Source: Sulfurospirillum tamanense (lineage in GTDB: Bacteria > Campylobacterota > Campylobacteria > Campylobacterales > Campylobacteraceae). Taken from it: DNA of 64,000 bases. The notes beneath the pieces are model-generated. The model saw only the letters and a list, made by a program, of their open reading frames with translations, did no database searches and was not told the DNA's origin. Positions 7,538-17,298 of this stretch are shown here, piece by piece. Both the position numbers and the translations under genes were made by a program. Positions within the stretch are counted from its first letter, which is position 1. Each line of letters begins with the position of its first letter. The stretch is taken from NCBI RefSeq assembly GCF_016937535.1, contig NZ_JAFHKK010000001.1:62001-126000 (forward strand), given 5' to 3'.

Positions 7538-10240
7538 CTATAAGCTAATTATTTCGATTTGATTTTCACCCACATAAAAAAGCCGCGCTTCTACCGGTTT
7601 ATGGACAATGGACGCCACCGCCTCTTTGTATGCGAGCACTTGCTTTTTATGCCCCTCTTCTCCTGCGCGTCCACTTTTGTAATCAATAACGATTACTTTA
7701 TCGTCTCTTTCGACTAACATATCTACCTGCTTTTGCTCCCCTTGGTACATCAAGGGCTGTTCTTTGTGCACAACACCCTCGCCCACCAATGCCACAAACT
7801 CTGGATGGGCAATAAGCCCCTTAATCCGCTTCTCAAGCCCCTTCCACGCCATCTCACCTAGGGCACCATAGCGCCCTCTTAGGCGCAAAAGCGCGGGGAT
7901 AACCCATGAAGGTTCAAACGCAGGCATCCACTCAAGGGCCTCGTGCAATGCTTGCCCAAAAAGCCGCGCCTCCATTGCACCGTCTTCCTTTTCCTCTTGG
8001 GATTTTTCCTTAGTTTGAGAGCCTAACGAATGAAGCTTTAAGGGCTTTTGCAAAGGCTCAAAAGGAGCATGAGCTGACTGCGAACTGGGCAAAATTTCTC
8101 CTCGCGCGCACGGAGTGAGCCCAAGGCTTTCAAATACAGATTTTTGGGATTTTTGAACCACCACAAGGCCTGTACGTCCACGGGTTAGGGCCACATAATG
8201 CGCATTGAGTTGGTCTTCTTTTTGGCGCTCTTTTTCTTTGGTTTTAGCTAGCCCATACAAAGCATCAACGTGTTCACGTTGCTTTTGCACATAAGAAATT
8301 CCCGTCAGTCGTGACCCCTCATAAGAAAAAAGTAACGGATCGCGGTGGGTGTTTTCTCCCTTGAGGCGGTCACACACAACCGCGTAGCCAAACTCTAATC
8401 CTTTGGATTTGTGTACCGTTAGAACCTTGACTCCCACACTCTCTTGCATGGGGGCTTGCGCGTCAAAGCGCTCCAAATCAAACAAAAACGCTTCGATGTC
8501 TTCATAGCGCCCAACCGCTTCTAAAAAAGCAATTATCCAAAGATGAGAGCCGTCCAAACCCAAATACTCCACCATCTGGCGAAACACAATCTCCAGCGGC
8601 CCCTCAAACCTAAAAATACGCGGCTTTGCCTCACTTTGGCTTAGTGCTAGTGTTTCGTGCCAAAACAATGGCGCCTGAAAATAACTGTACTTGGCGCACG
8701 CAATAAGTGCTTGAACGAAAGGAATATCACAAAGCCTGAGGGTAGCGTGGGTGTTTACATGTAAAGTAGGATAGGCTTCTTGCAAAGCCTCTTTGATAGC
8801 GCTTGCATCGTCGTTAGTTTGGGTTAAAACCGCTATTTCTTCATCGCGTACCCCTTTTTTCAACAAAACGCCTACTTGCTCCACTACTCCCTCAAGAGGG
8901 CTGTCTACTTGAACAACCTGCACCATTCCACCCAAGACATGGCTTGGGGTTGCCTGGGGCGTGTAGTGAGGCAGTACATTTTCAAACACTTCGTTCACAA
9001 AAGCAACCACCTCAGGCTTACTGCGGTAATTGGTACGCAACGCCTCCACAGGCACATCAAACCGCGATGCCGCCTCGTAAAATAGTGCTCCAGAACCCCC
9101 ACGAAACCGATAGATAGACTGTTTCACATCGCCCACATAGAAAAAACTTCGCGCCTCTTTAACACCCACTCCCGCGATAATCTCTTCTACCAATGGTGCC
9201 AAAATCTCGTACTGCGCCACATTCGTATCTTGAAACTCATCAATCAACAAATGTTCTACCATTCCATCGAGACGAAAATACAAAAAATCGCGCTCAAGCC
9301 CCTCATGTAACAACCGATACACACTATTGGTCACATCCGTAAAGGTGAGCTCATTGCGCTCTTTGGCCACACCCATGCGCACCTGCTTGTAAATCTCAAA
9401 CAGTGCCATCAACTCGCCTAGCAAAAACCCTTCCCGTTGTTTTGCGTAAGCGCCATAAGCGTCTTTAAGGGCTTCAAATGCTCTTTCAAGCTCTGGCGTG
9501 TGAAGTTTTTTATAATCCCAATAATCCAAGCTCTCCTTCGCCCAAAAGCTTTTCTCCAATAAGCCCCTAAGGGTTGTGGGAGCAAAAGGACTTAAAGAGC
9601 GTGGTGTTGCCTTGGCTTTTTCCAAAAATGCGTACAGCGCCCCAGCCGCCTCTAGCACCTCATGGTCGCTGGGGTAAGGGGTCGGGGGAAACGTTAGGGC
9701 AGCCAGCTCGGACTCTTTTTCATAAAGCATTCCAAAAAGCGAAAAAATATCGTTGCGTGACAACCTAAGCGCGGCAGCAAATTTAACCAACGCTTCTTGC
9801 TTGCCCTCTTTTTCAACCTTAATCAAAAAGGCCTCCAAAAGTGCCACCATTTCAGGCTGCGCCCCGATGGAAAAATCGGGCAAAATCCCATGGTGAAGCG
9901 AAAACTTACGCAAAATTCGCGCCACGTACGCGTCAATGGTTTCAATGGAGAGTGCCGCATTTAAAAACTTTGGCAAAGCACGCTTTTGCAATGCTAAGAC
10001 CGCTTCTTTATCGCACTCTAATAATGCGCTGAGGGCTTCCCATTCCGCTGGTTTTGAGGCAAGGTCTTCCAAAATCCCCTTTACGCGTTCCTTCATCTCG
10101 TTGGCGGCTTTTTTTGTAAACGTTAAAGCAACGATTTTAGAAGGATGCGCCCCTTGCAAAACCAAAGCAACATACCGCACGCTCAAAGCAAAGGTTTTGC
10201 CACTTCCGGCACTAGCCTCTAGGGCAAGTTTAGGCTTCAT
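7538..10240 (-). CDS. addA: AddA-type UvrD-like helicase with C-terminal nuclease (RecB-like)
   Basis: 900 residues from the ATG at 10240, chosen because AAGGGG precedes it and Walker A (ASAGSGKT, residues 9-16) then sits near the N terminus. Superfamily 1 motifs: Ia LTFTKKAANEMKERV (39-53), Walker B LIDEFQDTN (332-340), GDVKQSIYRFRGG, VLTVHKSKGLEF and the late VALTRGR motif. The end holds a PD-(D/E)XK nuclease with QVDML and VIDYKSG (851-857). With the upstream AddB it should process double-strand breaks for RecA. It starts 3 bp after the addB stop. In Campylobacter the same pair follows the cco region. Confidence 0.9.
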   Translation of the reverse strand: MKPKLALEASAGSGKTFALSVRYVALVLQGAHPSKIVALTFTKKAANEMKERVKGILEDLASKPAEWEALSALLECDKEAVLALQKRALPKFLNAALSIETIDAYVARILRKFSLHHGILPDFSIGAQPEMVALLEAFLIKVEKEGKQEALVKFAAALRLSRNDIFSLFGMLYEKESELAALTFPPTPYPSDHEVLEAAGALYAFLEKAKATPRSLSPFAPTTLRGLLEKSFWAKESLDYWDYKKLHTPELERAFEALKDAYGAYAKQREGFLLGELMALFEIYKQVRMGVAKERNELTFTDVTNSVYRLLHEGLERDFLYFRLDGMVEHLLIDEFQDTNVAQYEILAPLVEEIIAGVGVKEARSFFYVGDVKQSIYRFRGGSGALFYEAASRFDVPVEALRTNYRSKPEVVAFVNEVFENVLPHYTPQATPSHVLGGMVQVVQVDSPLEGVVEQVGVLLKKGVRDEEIAVLTQTNDDASAIKEALQEAYPTLHVNTHATLRLCDIPFVQALIACAKYSYFQAPLFWHETLALSQSEAKPRIFRFEGPLEIVFRQMVEYLGLDGSHLWIIAFLEAVGRYEDIEAFLFDLERFDAQAPMQESVGVKVLTVHKSKGLEFGYAVVCDRLKGENTHRDPLLFSYEGSRLTGISYVQKQREHVDALYGLAKTKEKERQKEDQLNAHYVALTRGRTGLVVVQKSQKSVFESLGLTPCARGEILPSSQSAHAPFEPLQKPLKLHSLGSQTKEKSQEEKEDGAMEARLFGQALHEALEWMPAFEPSWVIPALLRLRGRYGALGEMAWKGLEKRIKGLIAHPEFVALVGEGVVHKEQPLMYQGEQKQVDMLVERDDKVIVIDYKSGRAGEEGHKKQVLAYKEAVASIVHKPVEARLFYVGENQIEIISL

Positions 10241-10242
10241 TC

Positions 10243-12570
10243 TTAACCCCTTCCGCACAAATGCACGTAGGGGCAGTAAGAACACGCTGCACGTTTATCA
10301 GTCTTTTCAAAAGACTCTACAAAACGGTATGCCACTAAAATATCACTAAGTTGCGCAAGTTTTTCCTCCATTCCTTCTTCTTCCACACAGACTCCTTGCA
10401 AAAGGTCATAATACCCCACTCGCTCCACCTCCCCTTGCGTAGATGCTAACATATAGTAAAACTGCATTTGAAAATCCACCATGGTAGCAATGGCTTTTGG
10501 ACCGCTTTTAAGGGTGTTGCCTGTTTTGTAATCAAGCACTTCAAGTCTGCCCGCAAGGTGCTTATCAATACGATCAACTTTTCCCTCAAGATGCACCCCC
10601 TCAAAGATGCTTTTTAAAGACTCTTCTAGCTTCCATGGGTGCCATCCCTTGGCATGGCGTTCTGCTTCATTGGCGCAAAACACCCCAAGACGCTCCCGCC
10701 ATATCTCTTTTTCTAAGCGCCATGAGGCACTGGTGCCAAATGTAGCATCAAGGGCGTGTGCAACAAGGGCCTGATTTTTCACCTCCGAAGCACCAAACTC
10801 AGGATGGGCACACGCTATTTCAAGGGCGCCATGCAGGGCATTGCCTATATCTACTGCCTCAATGCCATCCTTGGGAAGAGGAGGCTCTTTAATGTGTTGA
10901 ATATACCGGTGATAGTAGCGCCGTTTGCACGTTAACAAAACCTTCAAGCGCGTTGCCGAAAGAGGCTTCTCAAAAGGAGCATGGGGGTGAAGCACAGGCG
11001 TTTCTTCGCGAGATTTTTGAGCTACAAAAGGCAAAAGAAGCTGGCTAAGGCTCTCATCATAACGCTCTTTTTTTGTTCTCAGGGCTTGCAAAAAACGCGA
11101 GGGGAGTTTTTCTTCATTCTCCACATAGCCTATTGCTACATGGGAAGCTTGGGTAAAAAGTCGGCTGTAATAATAACGCTGTAATTGCTCTCTGTCTTCC
11201 TTGTCTGGCAACCCTGCATAATGGCGTAAAGTAGAAGAGAGAAACATATCTTTTTCGCTGCGATGAGGCACCAAATCATCATTAAAATCAGGCACAATCA
11301 CCCCTTTAAAATGCACACCTCGGGTCTCTAACACTCCCATCACCGTCACAGGCCCTCCCATCACATCATCCACGCGCATCTTGTCAAGGCGGCGTAAAAA
11401 TAAGGTTAGCGCCTCTGAGAATGTGAGCGTTGGCGCAATCTTAAGAACACGCTCCAAGGAAGCAAGCGCTTCGTGAAGCTGCTCTTTGATGGTGTTTTCT
11501 TCTGCTTCAAAAGAACCAATAAGTGCCACAAAAGTATGAAAGTTTGTGGGTTTTTTCCACTGTTTCTTCCATGCTTCACGCGTGTTTTCTTCAATGCCCA
11601 GCCGCCTCATTCTGTGCAAAGAGGGTTGGGTTGTTTGATGAACATCTTGGGCCTTAGCCCGCAAACGCACTACAAAATCAAGCTCTTTAGCAGGCTTTCC
11701 CATGGCATAATTAAAAACATAGGCACGGTCATACAGGCGCAACAAAGAAGCAAACCCTTCATCAGGGAGTACTACAACAATCTCTTCTGGGGCTAGTCCT
11801 TCTTGCAAAAAACGCGCAACACAATCAAGCACAAACCCTACCTGCAAACTCCGAGAAGCCAACGGATAAACTTTCGCACAAGGAGCACTCAAAGAGCAAG
11901 GTGACGTGCTAAAATCGTCACCGCCAAGTCGAATCTGCGCCTCTTCTCCGATTTTCAAATCAATGCCTCTGGCACGCAAAACTTGTAAGACCTTTTCGTT
12001 ATAAGGCGTTGCCACAAGCTTTACATGTAAGGGCACAAGACGTCCCATCTCCTCCAGTACGCGCCACTCAAAGCTACTCAAGTACCCTTCCAAATGCACT
12101 GTAATAGCTTTACATGTAAAGACAAACGTCTCATCCATACGCGCATAAAGCGGAAAGGTAATGGTATCATATAACCCCTGCGCATCTAGGGCGTGTGTAT
12201 AGTTTTCATACACCTGTTTAAGCAAAGCAAGGTGTTCGGCAAATTGTGCGTAAACATCCGCACCCTCTAAATCTGCAATCGTTTTTTCTTCCGCACTAAG
12301 CTCCTCAAAAAAACGAAACACGTAGGAAGCGTTTTTAACAAAAGCCATAAAATGCTGCGGGATATTAAGAGTTTCAAAGGCATCAAACGCAACAGCTTGC
12401 TGCATCAAAAGAAGACGCATCTCCTCTTCTGCTTGCACTTTACCTTCGACAATTAACGCTTTTTTAAAAAATTCAGCAATGCTCATTGCCTTTGGCAAAA
12501 ATGTGTCTTGAGAAGAAAACGAAGCATAAAAAGAACGGACAGCGCGGTGGGTAGGGAAGATATGAATCAT
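10243..12570 (-). CDS. addB: AddB-type nuclease subunit with Fe-S cluster motif
   Basis: About 775 residues. ATG at 12570 (MIHIFPTHRAVRSFY) is preferred; an in-frame ATG at 12600 lacks any ribosome-binding site. The N-terminal helicase-like part is degenerate, as in AddB. The C-terminal half has the PD-(D/E)XK nuclease elements GKVDRIDKH and LEVLDYKTGN. Cysteines in LLTCKRRYYHRY and at the end (ACSYCPYVHLC) match the 4Fe-4S cluster of AddB nucleases. Partner of AddA. Two TTTACATGTAA palindromes (12020, 12109) are read as HVK and FTCK. A perfect 9-bp hairpin abuts the chosen start. Confidence 0.85.
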   Translation of the reverse strand: MIHIFPTHRAVRSFYASFSSQDTFLPKAMSIAEFFKKALIVEGKVQAEEEMRLLLMQQAVAFDAFETLNIPQHFMAFVKNASYVFRFFEELSAEEKTIADLEGADVYAQFAEHLALLKQVYENYTHALDAQGLYDTITFPLYARMDETFVFTCKAITVHLEGYLSSFEWRVLEEMGRLVPLHVKLVATPYNEKVLQVLRARGIDLKIGEEAQIRLGGDDFSTSPCSLSAPCAKVYPLASRSLQVGFVLDCVARFLQEGLAPEEIVVVLPDEGFASLLRLYDRAYVFNYAMGKPAKELDFVVRLRAKAQDVHQTTQPSLHRMRRLGIEENTREAWKKQWKKPTNFHTFVALIGSFEAEENTIKEQLHEALASLERVLKIAPTLTFSEALTLFLRRLDKMRVDDVMGGPVTVMGVLETRGVHFKGVIVPDFNDDLVPHRSEKDMFLSSTLRHYAGLPDKEDREQLQRYYYSRLFTQASHVAIGYVENEEKLPSRFLQALRTKKERYDESLSQLLLPFVAQKSREETPVLHPHAPFEKPLSATRLKVLLTCKRRYYHRYIQHIKEPPLPKDGIEAVDIGNALHGALEIACAHPEFGASEVKNQALVAHALDATFGTSASWRLEKEIWRERLGVFCANEAERHAKGWHPWKLEESLKSIFEGVHLEGKVDRIDKHLAGRLEVLDYKTGNTLKSGPKAIATMVDFQMQFYYMLASTQGEVERVGYYDLLQGVCVEEEGMEEKLAQLSDILVAYRFVESFEKTDKRAACSYCPYVHLCGRG

Positions 12571-12571
12571 G

Positions 12572-12598
12572 GGCTCACTTTCTTGGGATAAGTGAGCC
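12572..12598 (-). promoter_or_regulatory. Hairpin abutting the addB start codon
   Basis: GGCTCACTT (12572-12580) and AAGTGAGCC (12590-12598) form a perfect 9-bp stem one base before the addB ATG at 12570. No strong Shine-Dalgarno is visible outside the stem, so folding could limit AddB translation. It could also be a weak terminator for the fixH gene, but no T-tract follows. Confidence 0.45.
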
Positions 12599-12612
12599 AT
12601 TGTAGCAAAAAG

Positions 12613-13125
12613 TTACTTGCTTGCAAACACCTCATGGGTCACAAAACCCTCAAATTCATCAATCTGAATTTTACTCAAAAGTTGCCAACGACCTGGCTTG
12701 TCTAACACCACAGGCCCAAAGAAAAACATGCCATTTTCTCCCTTGGAGACATGCGGCTCTTGGTTAAACGCATTGGTATCAGGGCGTGTAATTAAAAGTG
12801 TTACTGTAGCCTCTTCCACGGGTAGCGCACCCACTTTGCGAAGAATCTGCAGGGGAATCTGTGTGGGTTTGTCTATTTCTACTTTCAAAAGAGGAAATAT
12901 TGCTTCAAACTGACCATCAAATACTTGTTGATTGGCGCGCAATTCATTAATGCTGCTATCTACTTGATCGTATTTAGCAAGGTAAGTTTGGTCAAACTGA
13001 ACAGGATTGTCTAGGGCGATTTTCACGGTCCAGCCACACGCCACAATGATAAAAATAATAGCACCAACAATGGCATGAGGCCAAAGATTGCGTTCTTTTT
13101 TTTGTTTAGGTGTTGTTGCGTGCAT
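12613..13125 (-). CDS. FixH/CcoH-like cbb3 oxidase assembly protein
   Basis: 170 residues from the ATG at 13125, supported by AAGGAG upstream and by one N-terminal membrane helix (HAIVGAIIFIIVACGWTVKIA, about residues 16-36). The rest is a soluble periplasmic domain ending in FVTHEVFASK. Size, topology and position after ccoP match FixH-family proteins needed for maturation of cbb3 oxidase. It overlaps the end of the upstream gene by 20 bp, so translation is probably coupled. Confidence 0.7.
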   Translation of the reverse strand: MHATTPKQKKERNLWPHAIVGAIIFIIVACGWTVKIALDNPVQFDQTYLAKYDQVDSSINELRANQQVFDGQFEAIFPLLKVEIDKPTQIPLQILRKVGALPVEEATVTLLITRPDTNAFNQEPHVSKGENGMFFFGPVVLDKPGRWQLLSKIQIDEFEGFVTHEVFASK

Positions 13126-13726
13126 GGCGGTGTTTTCTCCTTCGGTATAAAGCGACACCAACAGCCCATATGAGCGTAGCGTAAACAATGATACGCACAA
13201 TGTTGAGTGTATTTTTATTCCCACTTCCAATAGCGTGGTCCAATGTAATCTTCTGTGTTGCTGCGATTTGCTCCACAATATCCGCATACCCATTCAACAT
13301 TGCTGCGGTGTAATTATCGCTTCCTTTTTTAGTGGTTAAAAGTGGCAAAATTGTCCCTCTCCAAGGGTAAGGACTCAAGATTGCATCCTTATTAAACAGC
13401 GCTTCAACTCCTCCTGAACTAAGAATGTTGACCTGCTTATCTTCTTTTGAGAGCATCAATAGAGCATAAGGAGCGGTAAGCTTAGAGGAAAGCTCTAGCT
13501 CCACATCAGCCATCACTTTTCCTTGCAAAGAGTGAAGTGCCACCAAATAAACATTCACGCCACTTTTTTGGCGCAACTCTTCACCCAAAACATTTATCTT
13601 TTGGACTGCGCGCTCCCCTATAATGCCTTCATTAACAAGCACGCCAGCAGCAGAGAGCACACTGGAAAAAAAGATTAGAGAGAAAGCAGTCACCAAAAGG
13701 CGACCGCTACGTAAAAAAGTGTGCAT
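13106..13726 (-). CDS. TPM-domain-like membrane-anchored periplasmic protein
   Basis: 206 residues: signal peptide (about 1-26), then a roughly 140-residue domain similar to TPM/YgcG proteins (VQKINVLGEELRQKSGVNVYLVAL, YALLMLSKEDKQVNILSSGG), and one C-terminal helix followed by a basic tail RRRKHRHARNN. TPM domains occur in proteins linked to photosystem or respiratory-complex maintenance. The place between ccoP and fixH suggests a role in cbb3 oxidase biogenesis, not shown here. Start ATG overlaps the stop of the 33-codon gene upstream (TAATG). Confidence 0.65.
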   Translation of the reverse strand: MHTFLRSGRLLVTAFSLIFFSSVLSAAGVLVNEGIIGERAVQKINVLGEELRQKSGVNVYLVALHSLQGKVMADVELELSSKLTAPYALLMLSKEDKQVNILSSGGVEALFNKDAILSPYPWRGTILPLLTTKKGSDNYTAAMLNGYADIVEQIAATQKITLDHAIGSGNKNTLNIVRIIVYATLIWAVGVALYRRRKHRHARNNT

Positions 13727-13827
13727 TAGCCAATAAACAATGCGTTAGGAGTAAGCACAGCCCATGCACAAATAAGCGCACTAATAATTAATCCGATGGT
13801 AATAATTTTATCCATATGTTCGGCCAT
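13726..13827 (-). CDS. 33-residue single-helix membrane peptide in the cco operon
   Basis: Short open frame with an excellent ribosome-binding site (AAAGGAG nine bases before the ATG at 13827). Its stop shares one base with the next gene's ATG (TAATG), and it starts 5 bp after the DUF4006-like gene, so spacing is that of a real operon member. The peptide begins MAEHMDKIITIGLIIS and is one hydrophobic helix. Tiny single-helix subunits such as CcoM exist in cbb3 oxidases of Pseudomonas; this could be an analogue. No homology to CcoM is claimed. Confidence 0.6.
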   Translation of the reverse strand: MAEHMDKIITIGLIISALICAWAVLTPNALFIG

Positions 13828-13831
13828 AGCA

Positions 13832-14047
13832 TTACTCCTTTATGACTTTAAGCTTTGCATTGTCTTTGTCAATCATCTTAATCGCTGAGGGATCAGTGAT
13901 AACATAAGGCTTATCCGCCACCGCTTGTTGTGCCACGATTCCCCACCATGTCAAGCCAACCAAAATACTAATGAGCAAAAGGGTGGCAATGAGCATTCCC
14001 GTGATGCCATGTAGTGAAAAAATATGTCTGTTTGTATTTTCCATCAT
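13832..14047 (-). CDS. DUF4006-like small membrane protein
   Basis: 71 residues, one membrane helix (GITGMLIATLLLISILVGLTWWGIV, about 14-38) and a short polar C-terminal tail. Position directly after ccoP matches the small DUF4006 protein found there in Campylobacter. Function unknown; probably part of, or needed for, the cbb3 oxidase. Good AAGGAG upstream; 6 bp from ccoP. Confidence 0.65.
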   Translation of the reverse strand: MMENTNRHIFSLHGITGMLIATLLLISILVGLTWWGIVAQQAVADKPYVITDPSAIKMIDKDNAKLKVIKE

Positions 14048-14053
14048 TACTCC

Positions 14054-14908
14054 TTATTTGGTCAAAGAGAGGATATATGTGCCAACAGCTAACTTCTGAA
14101 CATCAGAGAGACGGCCATCATTAAAGGCAGGCATGTCGCCAATATACCCTTTTTTCCCACGGCTAAGCACCTCAACTGCAAATGCGGGCTTGCCATAAAT
14201 AGTTAAATCCGGCGACATGCCATCCATGCCCTTGCCATCATCCCCATGACACGCTGCGCATGTAGGCCAAAGGGCCTCTCCTATTGAGACCAAGGAGGGA
14301 TTAGCCGATGTGTTTGTCTGGGAAATTTCTTGAGCCATATAAGCAGCAACTGCCTTGGCGCTTGCCTCATCTAGCAACCCTCCAGGCATTTCACCCAAAG
14401 GATAGTTCAAGCCTTTTGCACCATCAAGAATAACCTCAACAATGGCTTTTTCACTTCCCCAGACAGTTAGATCGGTTGCTTTTCCTCCCATGCCATCAGC
14501 AGTAATACCATGGCACGGTGCGCACTGGACCAAATAAACACCCTCACCCATTCCCATAAGCGTGGCTTGGTCTGGGTTGGCCCACTTCTGCTCAAAACGC
14601 GCATTGTGTGCTTGCACCTCTTCGTTGTATTCTCCAATCTGAGAATAGGCGTTCAAGGGATAGCCCACTAAAAAGTACCAAATTGCCCAAACAATTGTCA
14701 AAACAAACACAACAGCCCAACCAAAAGGAGGGGGATTTTTATACTCACCAATACCATCCCAGTTGTGTTCAAGCAACTCGCCTTCGCTTTTTTCGTTGCG
14801 AATTTGCTTAAAATATTTTGCTGCAACAAGCCACGTAGCCAAGATGATTGCAGCCGAACCAATCAGCGATAGCACGTTGACGTTGTCACTTAAATTAAAC
14901 CATTCCAT
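14054..14908 (-). CDS. ccoP: cbb3-type cytochrome c oxidase subunit III (dihaem cytochrome c)
   Basis: 284 residues with two N-terminal membrane helices (about 13-32 and 63-84) and two c-type haem sites, CAPCH at 129-133 and CAACH at 217-221. GEMPGGLLD and GDMPAFNDG supply the axial methionines. It passes electrons from periplasmic donors to CcoO and CcoN. Member of the ccoNOQP operon. Confidence 0.96.
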   Translation of the reverse strand: MEWFNLSDNVNVLSLIGSAAIILATWLVAAKYFKQIRNEKSEGELLEHNWDGIGEYKNPPPFGWAVVFVLTIVWAIWYFLVGYPLNAYSQIGEYNEEVQAHNARFEQKWANPDQATLMGMGEGVYLVQCAPCHGITADGMGGKATDLTVWGSEKAIVEVILDGAKGLNYPLGEMPGGLLDEASAKAVAAYMAQEISQTNTSANPSLVSIGEALWPTCAACHGDDGKGMDGMSPDLTIYGKPAFAVEVLSRGKKGYIGDMPAFNDGRLSDVQKLAVGTYILSLTK

Positions 14909-14938: not shown

Positions 14939-15148
14939 TTAGCATTGTTTGGAAAAGGATTCAACTGGCGTATCGTGAATTTCATCCCTAAGGACGATGT
15001 CTGAATATTTCTCATAACTTTTTCGTCCTGTTTTTTCAGACTTGTACATATGGTACGCATACCCATACATTGCAAAAACAAGAAGAATAGTAAAAGCAAA
15101 ATACCCGTATCCAAGAAGCTCTTTAAGTGTTTCCAATTCCATTGTCAT
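14939..15148 (-). CDS. ccoQ: cbb3 oxidase small subunit CcoQ
   Basis: 69 residues: one helix (LGYGYFAFTILLVFAMYGYAYHMY, about 12-35) then a charged tail RDEIHDTPVES, typical of Campylobacterota CcoQ. CcoQ stabilises the cbb3 complex. Lies 3 bp after ccoO and 30 bp before ccoP. An overlapping frame at 14911-15114 was considered and rejected. Confidence 0.85.
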   Translation of the reverse strand: MTMELETLKELLGYGYFAFTILLVFAMYGYAYHMYKSEKTGRKSYEKYSDIVLRDEIHDTPVESFSKQC

Positions 15149-15151
15149 GCC

Positions 15152-15817
15152 TTATTTTAAGCTATTCATGTAAGCGATAATCGCCACAATTTCTTTGATT
15201 TCGCCGCGCTCAAAAGCATCTTTAACATCCTGATTTCGCATGCTATCGACTACTACTTTTGCTTCAGCAAACACTTGCTCTCTTGCCTCTTCCCATGTGC
15301 CAAGAGCTGGCATTCCCTCAGTGTCATAAGGCACCTTAAACACTTGTTTAACAGTAAAAGCCTCTGCATAAGCTGTTTCAATATCTGCATTGTTTTTAAA
15401 CATGTGTTTATATGCAGGCATGATGGAGCTTGGCACAACAGAAAGCGGATCCCACATGTGGTTCTCATGCCAATCGGTTGTACGGTAGTTTCCTACGCGC
15501 ATAAGGTCGGGCCCTGTGCGCTTTGAACCCCAAAGAAAAGGACGATCATAGGCATATTCTCCACTCAAAGAGTAGTTTCCATACCGGTCTGTTTCAGATT
15601 TAAAAGGACGAATAAGTTGCGAATGGCACGCATTACAACTGTCTTTAATATACACATGACGACCAGCGAGCTCAAGCACACTGTAGGGCTTTCGTGTTTC
15701 TACAGGGCGCGCTTGTTCCGCGAATTGCGGAATAATTTGTACAATGCCCGCGTAAGCAATCACAACAAAAACGGCAACGGCAAAAAAGAAAGGGTTTTTC
15801 TCTAACCAGCTAAACAT
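15152..15817 (-). CDS. ccoO: cbb3-type cytochrome c oxidase subunit II (monohaem)
   Basis: 221 residues, one N-terminal helix (about 9-30) and a haem c site CNACHSQ at 61-67. Conserved downstream blocks include GPDLMRVG and SIMPAYKHMF, whose methionine is the likely axial ligand. 14 bp after ccoN. Confidence 0.96.
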   Translation of the reverse strand: MFSWLEKNPFFFAVAVFVVIAYAGIVQIIPQFAEQARPVETRKPYSVLELAGRHVYIKDSCNACHSQLIRPFKSETDRYGNYSLSGEYAYDRPFLWGSKRTGPDLMRVGNYRTTDWHENHMWDPLSVVPSSIMPAYKHMFKNNADIETAYAEAFTVKQVFKVPYDTEGMPALGTWEEAREQVFAEAKVVVDSMRNQDVKDAFERGEIKEIVAIIAYMNSLK

Positions 15818-15831
15818 AATCCATCCTCCTT

Positions 15832-17298
15832 TTACGCTGCCATGGGCGAAGCATTTTGAGGTTCTTTCTCAAGCGCTTTCCCAGCAGTCATGGTTTTGTA
15901 CATATTGTAAGTGAAGATGAAGAAGCCAACCAAATACAACAATCCACCTGTTGCCCGAATAACATAGTAAGGAAACAACACCGTCACTGTGTCAATAAAC
16001 GAATAGGCAAGATTACCAAACTGGTCCGTTGCACGCCACATCATCCCTTGAGTAATCCCTGCAACCCACATACTTGTAAAATAGAGCACAATGCCCGTAG
16101 TCTGAACCCAAAATTGCACTTCTAAAAGTTTTTTGCTGTAAAGTTCTCGTTTAAACATGCGAGGCGCCATATGAAACATCGCCGCCATAGTCATAAATCC
16201 AACCCAACCCAAAGTACCATCATGCACGTGACCTGGAATCCAATCCGTAAAATGCGCCAAAGCATTAACAGATTTGATAGATAAAATCGGCCCCTCAATG
16301 GTGCTAAACATATAAAAGGTGGAGGCTAAAATCATAAACTTAATAAGCGGATTAGATTTAATCTGGCCCCACTCACCCTTCATGGTCAAGAGCATGTTGA
16401 TTGCACTACCCCAAGAAGGCAAAATAAGCACAACCGAAAAGATAGACCCCATGGTCTGCATCCAATCAGGCACTGTAGAGTAGATAAGGTGGTGGCTTCC
16501 TGCCCACAAGTAGACAAACATCAAGCCCCAAAATGAAAGCAAAGAGAGTTTGTACGAGTAAATAGGCTGGCCTGATTCTTTTGGCAAGAAGTAGTAAATC
16601 TGCGCAATGATTGCTACAGTAAAGACAAAGGCAACCGCGTTGTGTCCATACCACCACTGCACCATCGCATCATTAGTGCCTGCGTACATAGAAACAGAGT
16701 GGTACCAATTTCCCATGCCTGAAACAAAGTACGTGGGAACTGCCATATTGTTAAAAAGATACAACATTGCTACTCCCAAAAAGGTTGCAATGAAATACCA
16801 AAGGGAAATATACAGTGCCTTTTCGCGACGGATACCAATAAGGCCAAACATACTCACGCCCCAAAGCACCCACACAATGACCACGCCAATATCAATAGGC
16901 CATTCAAGTTCTGCGTACTCTTTAGAGGTTGTCACGCCCGCAAAAAGCGACACAACCGCAACAAGCATCACGACCATATAAAGCCAAAAATGAAGTTTTC
17001 CAATAAGCATCAAAAAAGGCGATTCAGCCATCGATACCTTTAAAACACGCTGTCCAATGTAGTACCATGTAGAAAAAATACCTGCGAGCATAAACCCGAA
17101 GATAACCCCACTGGTATGCAAAGGGCGCAATCGACTAAACGTACCATACTCGCCCGCGAGGTAGTTCAGTTCTGGATATGCCATTTGATAGGCAATCAAC
17201 ACACCAATTACCATGCCGATGATTCCAAAAAGAATGGAAGCATACATAAACAGTTTGGCAACAGTGTAGTCGTAGTTCAATGCACTGCTTGGTTGCAT
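15832..17298 (-). CDS. ccoN: cbb3-type cytochrome c oxidase subunit I
   Basis: 488 residues, about twelve membrane helices. Haem and CuB histidines are visible in RLRPLHTSGVIFG, MVQWWYGHNAVAFVFT, AGSHHLIYSTVPDWMQ and IPGHVHDGTLGW. Catalytic subunit reducing oxygen at high affinity and pumping protons. First gene of ccoNOQP; AGGAGG precedes the ATG at 17298. The 133-bp upstream region holds a TATACT box and TTAAATT repeats described separately. Confidence 0.97.
   Translation of the reverse strand: MQPSSALNYDYTVAKLFMYASILFGIIGMVIGVLIAYQMAYPELNYLAGEYGTFSRLRPLHTSGVIFGFMLAGIFSTWYYIGQRVLKVSMAESPFLMLIGKLHFWLYMVVMLVAVVSLFAGVTTSKEYAELEWPIDIGVVIVWVLWGVSMFGLIGIRREKALYISLWYFIATFLGVAMLYLFNNMAVPTYFVSGMGNWYHSVSMYAGTNDAMVQWWYGHNAVAFVFTVAIIAQIYYFLPKESGQPIYSYKLSLLSFWGLMFVYLWAGSHHLIYSTVPDWMQTMGSIFSVVLILPSWGSAINMLLTMKGEWGQIKSNPLIKFMILASTFYMFSTIEGPILSIKSVNALAHFTDWIPGHVHDGTLGWVGFMTMAAMFHMAPRMFKRELYSKKLLEVQFWVQTTGIVLYFTSMWVAGITQGMMWRATDQFGNLAYSFIDTVTVLFPYYVIRATGGLLYLVGFFIFTYNMYKTMTAGKALEKEPQNASPMAA

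Follow-up and report, generated by a model that had tools for sequence, protein, structure and literature searches.

The cbb3 oxidase operon and the ccoY frame

The window analysed here, a stretch of 64,000 nucleotides of Sulfurospirillum tamanense (contig NZ_JAFHKK010000001.1, positions 62,001 to 126,000), carries on its minus strand the genes ccoNOQP of a cbb3-type oxidase and, downstream of all four, ccoX, a very short frame here called ccoY, ccoZ and ccoH, with ccoY lying between ccoX and ccoZ. The features of the locus, in reading order, are as follows:

15832–17298, minus strand: ccoN, cbb3 subunit I (E = 1.1e-138 to 3mk7 chain A)
15152–15817, minus strand: ccoO (FixO, PF02433)
14939–15148, minus strand: ccoQ, epsilon-type CcoQ (TIGR02736, above the TIGR02736 cut-off)
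14054–14908, minus strand: ccoP (FixP, di-haem cytochrome c)
13832–14047, minus strand: ccoX (DUF4006, PF13179; E = 3.6e-28)
13835–13841, minus strand: ribosome-binding site of ccoY, AAAGGAG, within the final codons of ccoX
13726–13827, minus strand: ccoY, from ATG at 13827 to TAA at 13726; 33-residue single-helix membrane protein, orthologue of Campylobacter jejuni Cj1485
13724–13728, minus strand: TAATG junction, in which the ccoY stop (13728–13726) overlaps the ccoZ start (13726–13724)
13106–13726, minus strand: ccoZ (TPM domain, PF04536; E = 3.4e-6)
12613–13125, minus strand: ccoH (FixH-like, PF05751), with its start set at the ATG that follows AAGGAG

The protein encoded by ccoY is MAEHMDKIITIGLIISALICAWAVLTPNALFIG. 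An earlier note on this DNA, made from the letters alone, had proposed that the cbb3 operon contains a gene for a 33-residue membrane peptide, a proposal that the frame itself and the conservation and purifying selection described below bear out. The strong ribosome-binding site that the note reported is present, with AAAGGAG placed 7 nt ahead of the ATG. The tight spacing that it described also stands in that both neighbours are close, but its values require correction: the gap between the ccoX (DUF4006) stop and the ccoY ATG is 4 nt (TGCT, 13831–13828) rather than 5, and ccoY and ccoZ (TPM) overlap by 1 nt rather than being separated by 1 bp. No ribosome-binding site of its own precedes the ccoZ start in the window. 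Rfam models gave no matches between window positions 12000 and 18500, and promoter and terminator scans at the locus gave nothing clearly above shuffled sequence. Downstream of ccoH, two large helicase/nuclease-like frames with a 43-nt overlap occupy 7538–12600 of the minus strand; we take these to resemble an AddAB pair.

The genes between ccoP and ccoH were named ccoX, ccoY and ccoZ in a 2021 study of C. jejuni, in which ccoX is cj1486c (DUF4006), ccoY is cj1485c (33 residues, one helix) and ccoZ is cj1484c (TPM) (PMC8267372). The primers of that study could be placed on one of the loci compared here, L017, which serves as a stand-in for C. jejuni NCTC 11168 in the primer mapping: the eight gene-specific primer parts for the ccoX, ccoY, ccoZ and ccoH deletions (Table 2 of PMC8267372) match it exactly and in order, and when four of these parts and one screening primer were compared with 17 loci, all five matched in L017 only. 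The L017 frame in the slot between ccoX and ccoZ has 33 residues, as does Cj1485, and is 48% identical to the window protein. The window frame is thus CcoY, the orthologue of Cj1485, in a Campylobacterota operon ccoNOQP-X-Y-Z-H, sharing with its C. jejuni counterpart the slot, the length, the single helix and this level of identity. The two differ in the NHLF motif, where His29 is Ala in the window, and at the upstream junction, where ccoY of C. jejuni overlaps ccoX and that of the window has the 4-nt gap instead. To the author of the earlier note, a Campylobacterota counterpart of CcoM would have been new; the gene had in fact already been named, and a deletion phenotype given for it, in 2021 (PMC8267372). 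Another study reports a 1.68-fold decrease in the cj1485c transcript (PMC7099621), which shows that the gene is transcribed; Cj1485 is not named in the main text of a C. jejuni ribosome-profiling paper (PMC11955535).

Conservation and distribution of ccoY in Campylobacterota

Taken without its relatives, the ccoY frame is weak evidence of a gene. In gaps simulated from local composition with a first-order model, ATG frames of 27–42 codons beginning within 35 nt arose in 11.6%, and ones with a hydrophobic helix in 2.9%, which leaves the frame unremarkable; it is conservation in relatives that identifies it as a real gene. A search of relatives for conserved short frames between the DUF4006 and TPM genes, the check that the earlier note had proposed, was strongly positive, and the frame is not broken in close relatives. 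Between the window and L003, the sole congener among the genomes compared, 17 of 21.8 synonymous and 4 of 77.2 non-synonymous sites are changed, and pN/pS over 78 non-independent pairs from 24 sequences is 0.26 in frame; the other frames tested give 0.97, 1.64 and 0.68. This pattern indicates that purifying selection acts on ccoY. A chance origin of the frame between two operon genes, for which the 2.9% of simulated gaps holding a comparable hydrophobic frame might be cited, can be practically dismissed in view of phylum-wide conservation, this selection and the published gene.

The distribution of the family was assessed with two profiles: A1, which draws on 29 window-type sequences, and A4, which draws on 26 of the 29 loci examined in family f2, which gene content suggests to be Helicobacteraceae. 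In its own genome, the window CcoY scores E = 1.9e-19 with A1, a profile that includes the window sequence. With the threshold set at E ≤ 1e-3, A1 matches 193 of 296 genomes (counted by hand, with 35 weaker matches up to E ≤ 1 left out). At the same threshold it matches none of the 88 f2 genomes, which suggested loss of ccoY from that family; this was ruled out by A4 and by direct reading of the slot, which holds a one-helix frame of 33–41 residues in all 29 loci examined. Every one of the 88 f2 genomes has an A4 match (E ≤ 1.1e-6; also counted by hand), 26 of them by construction. Alignment of the two profiles with hhalign gave a probability of 89% (E = 2e-6, 28 columns), compared with 16% and 1.5% for a control, the CcoX helix, against A1 and A4, respectively; A4 moreover detects the CcoY locus itself in four genomes (G267, G201, G175 and G008; E from 5e-4 to 8e-3). 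In longer frames, chiefly of 230–257 residues, A4 matches with E between 3e-4 and 0.01 were taken as chance. On these profile comparisons, the window-type and Helicobacter-side forms of CcoY are likely, rather than proven, homologues.

At E ≤ 1e-3, A1 and A4 between them detect CcoY in 281 of the 296 genomes. CcoO (PF02433) is found in 285 of the 296, and all 11 remaining genomes are without both DUF4006 and CcoY; DUF4006 itself is present in 286 of 298 genomes of the phylum. CcoY occurs in 284 of the 285 CcoO-bearing genomes, three of these by inspection of the slot, where G048, G250 and G286 have a frame of 34–35 residues and no strong profile match; the one exception is G231, whose contig stops some 1.1 kb past ccoO, ahead of the slot. 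CcoY thus tracks the cbb3 oxidase across the phylum. When loci were anchored on CcoX, a short one-helix frame was next in line in 77 of 77, directly after ccoX in 75 and after an inserted ccoG in two; that of L201 was found only as 27 codons from a TTG. A genome scan with one motif of a further profile, A2, returned 118 stretches and 105 relatives, of which 80 were kept; 79 of these are labelled Campylobacterota and one (L124) just "bacterium", and because the motif is narrow, the scan leaves absence of CcoY outside Campylobacterota undemonstrated. Two genomes of the window's family rated 99–100% complete (G176 and G212) are without CcoO, CcoX and CcoY. One in-frame TAA interrupts the CcoO match of L185 (genome G298), reflecting a sequencing error, a broken gene or read-through.

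The place of ccoY beside its two neighbours is not fixed. A gene that we take, from its sequence, to be ccoG-like stands between ccoX and ccoY at loci L208, L209 and L210, in genomes G146, G037 and G075 of families f8 and f11; an apparent absence of ccoY after ccoX in G037 and G075 was ruled out when it was located beyond this gene. At L121 and L128 (Candidatus Thiovulum) and at L130, ccoY closes the operon and ccoZ is missing from the slot; at L128, ccoZ and ccoH lie about 3 kb away on the opposite strand. Since ccoY stays with the oxidase genes despite inserted ccoG or relocated ccoZ and ccoH, it is independent of either neighbour. CcoP is longer in L121 (2821–3753), L128 (2826–3764), L130 (2824–3759) and L160 (2843–3733), with 296–312 residues as against 284 in the window, and has an additional N-terminal hydrophobic stretch in these four loci.

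Protein anatomy and comparison with small oxidase subunits

The single hydrophobic helix that the earlier note read from the frame is recovered both by hydropathy (best 19-residue Kyte-Doolittle mean of 2.47) and in an AlphaFold2 model of the window protein, which has a helix at residues 2–25 (mean pLDDT 82.9, pTM 0.44). Among 65 aligned CcoY sequences, 83 Lys/Arg residues precede the helix and 3 follow it, a bias from which the positive-inside rule predicts that the N-terminus lies inside. The commonest residues in this alignment are Trp22, Val24, Thr26, Pro27, Asn28, His29, Leu30 and a terminal Gly; the Ala at position 29 of the window protein means that His29 is not a required ligand.

Searches of Pfam and NCBIfam gave no convincing model for CcoY. 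The weak matches obtained, the best being YtzI at E = 0.0012, touch at most 5 of 29 members and were set aside as chance helix similarity. CcoQ is a small helix subunit encoded in the same operon, but the CcoQ families TIGR02736 and PF05545 gave no matches to the window CcoY; as the window has its own CcoQ (14939–15148), CcoY is additional to it.

The earlier note had also likened the peptide to CcoM of Pseudomonas. PDB entry 5djq, which we take to be a cbb3 oxidase containing CcoM, is present in the PDB copy that was searched, and neither A1 nor A4 matched any chain in that copy up to E = 10; CcoN matched five distinct PDB sequences, none labelled Campylobacterota among the matches listed. 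CcoM of Pseudomonas stutzeri has 36 residues (PMC10433244), and the likeness holds for length, the tiny single-helix form and the cbb3 oxidase setting; no relation in sequence was detected in these profile searches. True homology of CcoY to CcoM, which these shared features might suggest, is accordingly very improbable given the PDB result and the lack of a convincing Pfam or NCBIfam match; a stabilising role like that of CcoM is, by analogy, plausible. Within the same phylum, C. jejuni CioY is a 34-residue single-helix oxidase subunit, recognized by ribosome profiling, that binds CioA (PMC11955535); it resembles CcoY as a tiny one-helix protein from an oxidase-associated gene but belongs to a bd-type (CioAB) oxidase rather than to cbb3.

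The published deletion and the role of CcoY

Deletion of ccoY or of ccoZ in C. jejuni reduced but did not abolish activity, and the cassette used carries a promoter and no terminator, a design intended to limit polar effects; the word "complementation" does not occur in the main text of the paper (PMC8267372). In the coding orientation of L017, where the locus is on the minus strand, ccoY occupies 1716–1817, the ccoX stop codon 1717–1719, and the ccoZ start begins at 1814. In the mapped ccoY deletion, the left arm reaches as far as 1715 and the right arm starts from 1818 (L017 primers, 1690–1843), so that neither the stop codon of ccoX nor the start codon of ccoZ is retained, and the next possible in-frame start of ccoZ is codon 19, unless the end of the cassette provides one. 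In the ccoX deletion, the right arm starts from 1720, which takes out the ccoY start codon (1716–1718). Since the ccoY deletion thus cuts into both neighbours, the lowered activity cannot be credited to CcoY alone; losing only ccoZ would have the same reported effect, an activity reduced but not abolished. This was the only ccoY mutant found in the literature searched, which takes in few subscription journals or preprints, and it is confounded. Nine proteins are named from the native-gel bands in the account of C. jejuni, CcoY not among them (PMC8267372); this counts against CcoY as part of the oxidase, although trypsin would yield little from a 33-residue protein that has a single lysine.

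The nearest ccoZ start, picked mechanically, falls between −8 and +14 nt relative to the ccoY stop at 57 of the 61 loci compared; one locus has none within 60 nt. Only 9 of 60 have an SD-like motif ahead of this start, a pattern that points to translation of ccoZ by ribosomes re-initiating after ccoY. It might then be supposed that ccoY serves mainly for translation, with ribosomes leaving it to restart on ccoZ and the peptide itself of minor importance, and the published ccoY deletion, which also removes the ccoZ start codon and resembles the ccoZ deletion in phenotype (PMC8267372), would fit; this is improbable, however, since selection acts on the amino-acid sequence of CcoY (the pN/pS of 0.26) and ccoY is kept at L121, L128 and L130 without an adjacent ccoZ. 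Somewhat less unlikely, but still doubtful, is that CcoY partners CcoZ rather than the oxidase core, its helix docking CcoZ and so joining the oxidase to the Qcr (bc) complex. The apparent translational coupling of the two genes is consistent with such a partnership, as are the lowered, non-abolished activity after deletion of either and the behaviour of CcoZ in native gels, where it runs with band II, the one that contains Qcr, and is depleted from band III (PMC8267372). Against it, the same three loci retain ccoY with ccoX and the structural genes although ccoZ is gone from the slot, and the published mutants do not separate ccoY from ccoZ.

The reading preferred here is that the frame is ccoY and that its product is probably an additional helix at the periphery of the cbb3 oxidase, aiding the stability or assembly of that enzyme. 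CcoY would reside in the inner membrane with a short cytoplasmic N-terminus bearing one or two lysines, span the membrane by a single predicted helix of about 24 residues, and end in a short, uncharged tail, predicted to be periplasmic, with the consensus LTPNHLF[IV]G. Most likely it would pack on the cbb3 core besides CcoQ and stabilise the active oxidase or help to assemble it, possibly with CcoX, CcoZ and CcoH. The stronger proposal, that CcoY is an obligatory extra cbb3 helix throughout the phylum, Helicobacter included, which together with CcoZ assembles the oxidase or ties it to Qcr, is a speculative extension that we would expect to fail more readily than to hold.

What is new here is that ccoY reaches across the phylum, takes a divergent form in f2 and does not depend on either neighbour, and that the only functional evidence found for it is flawed; the primer mapping gives a concrete reason to repeat that one experiment. 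No Pfam or NCBIfam model matches the gene product convincingly, and a divergent form exists on the Helicobacter side. Campylobacterota have the cbb3 oxidase as their high-affinity oxygen enzyme, and ccoY, of a size to encode a small subunit and kept wherever the oxidase is, is easily missed in annotations, purifications and structure models of that enzyme.
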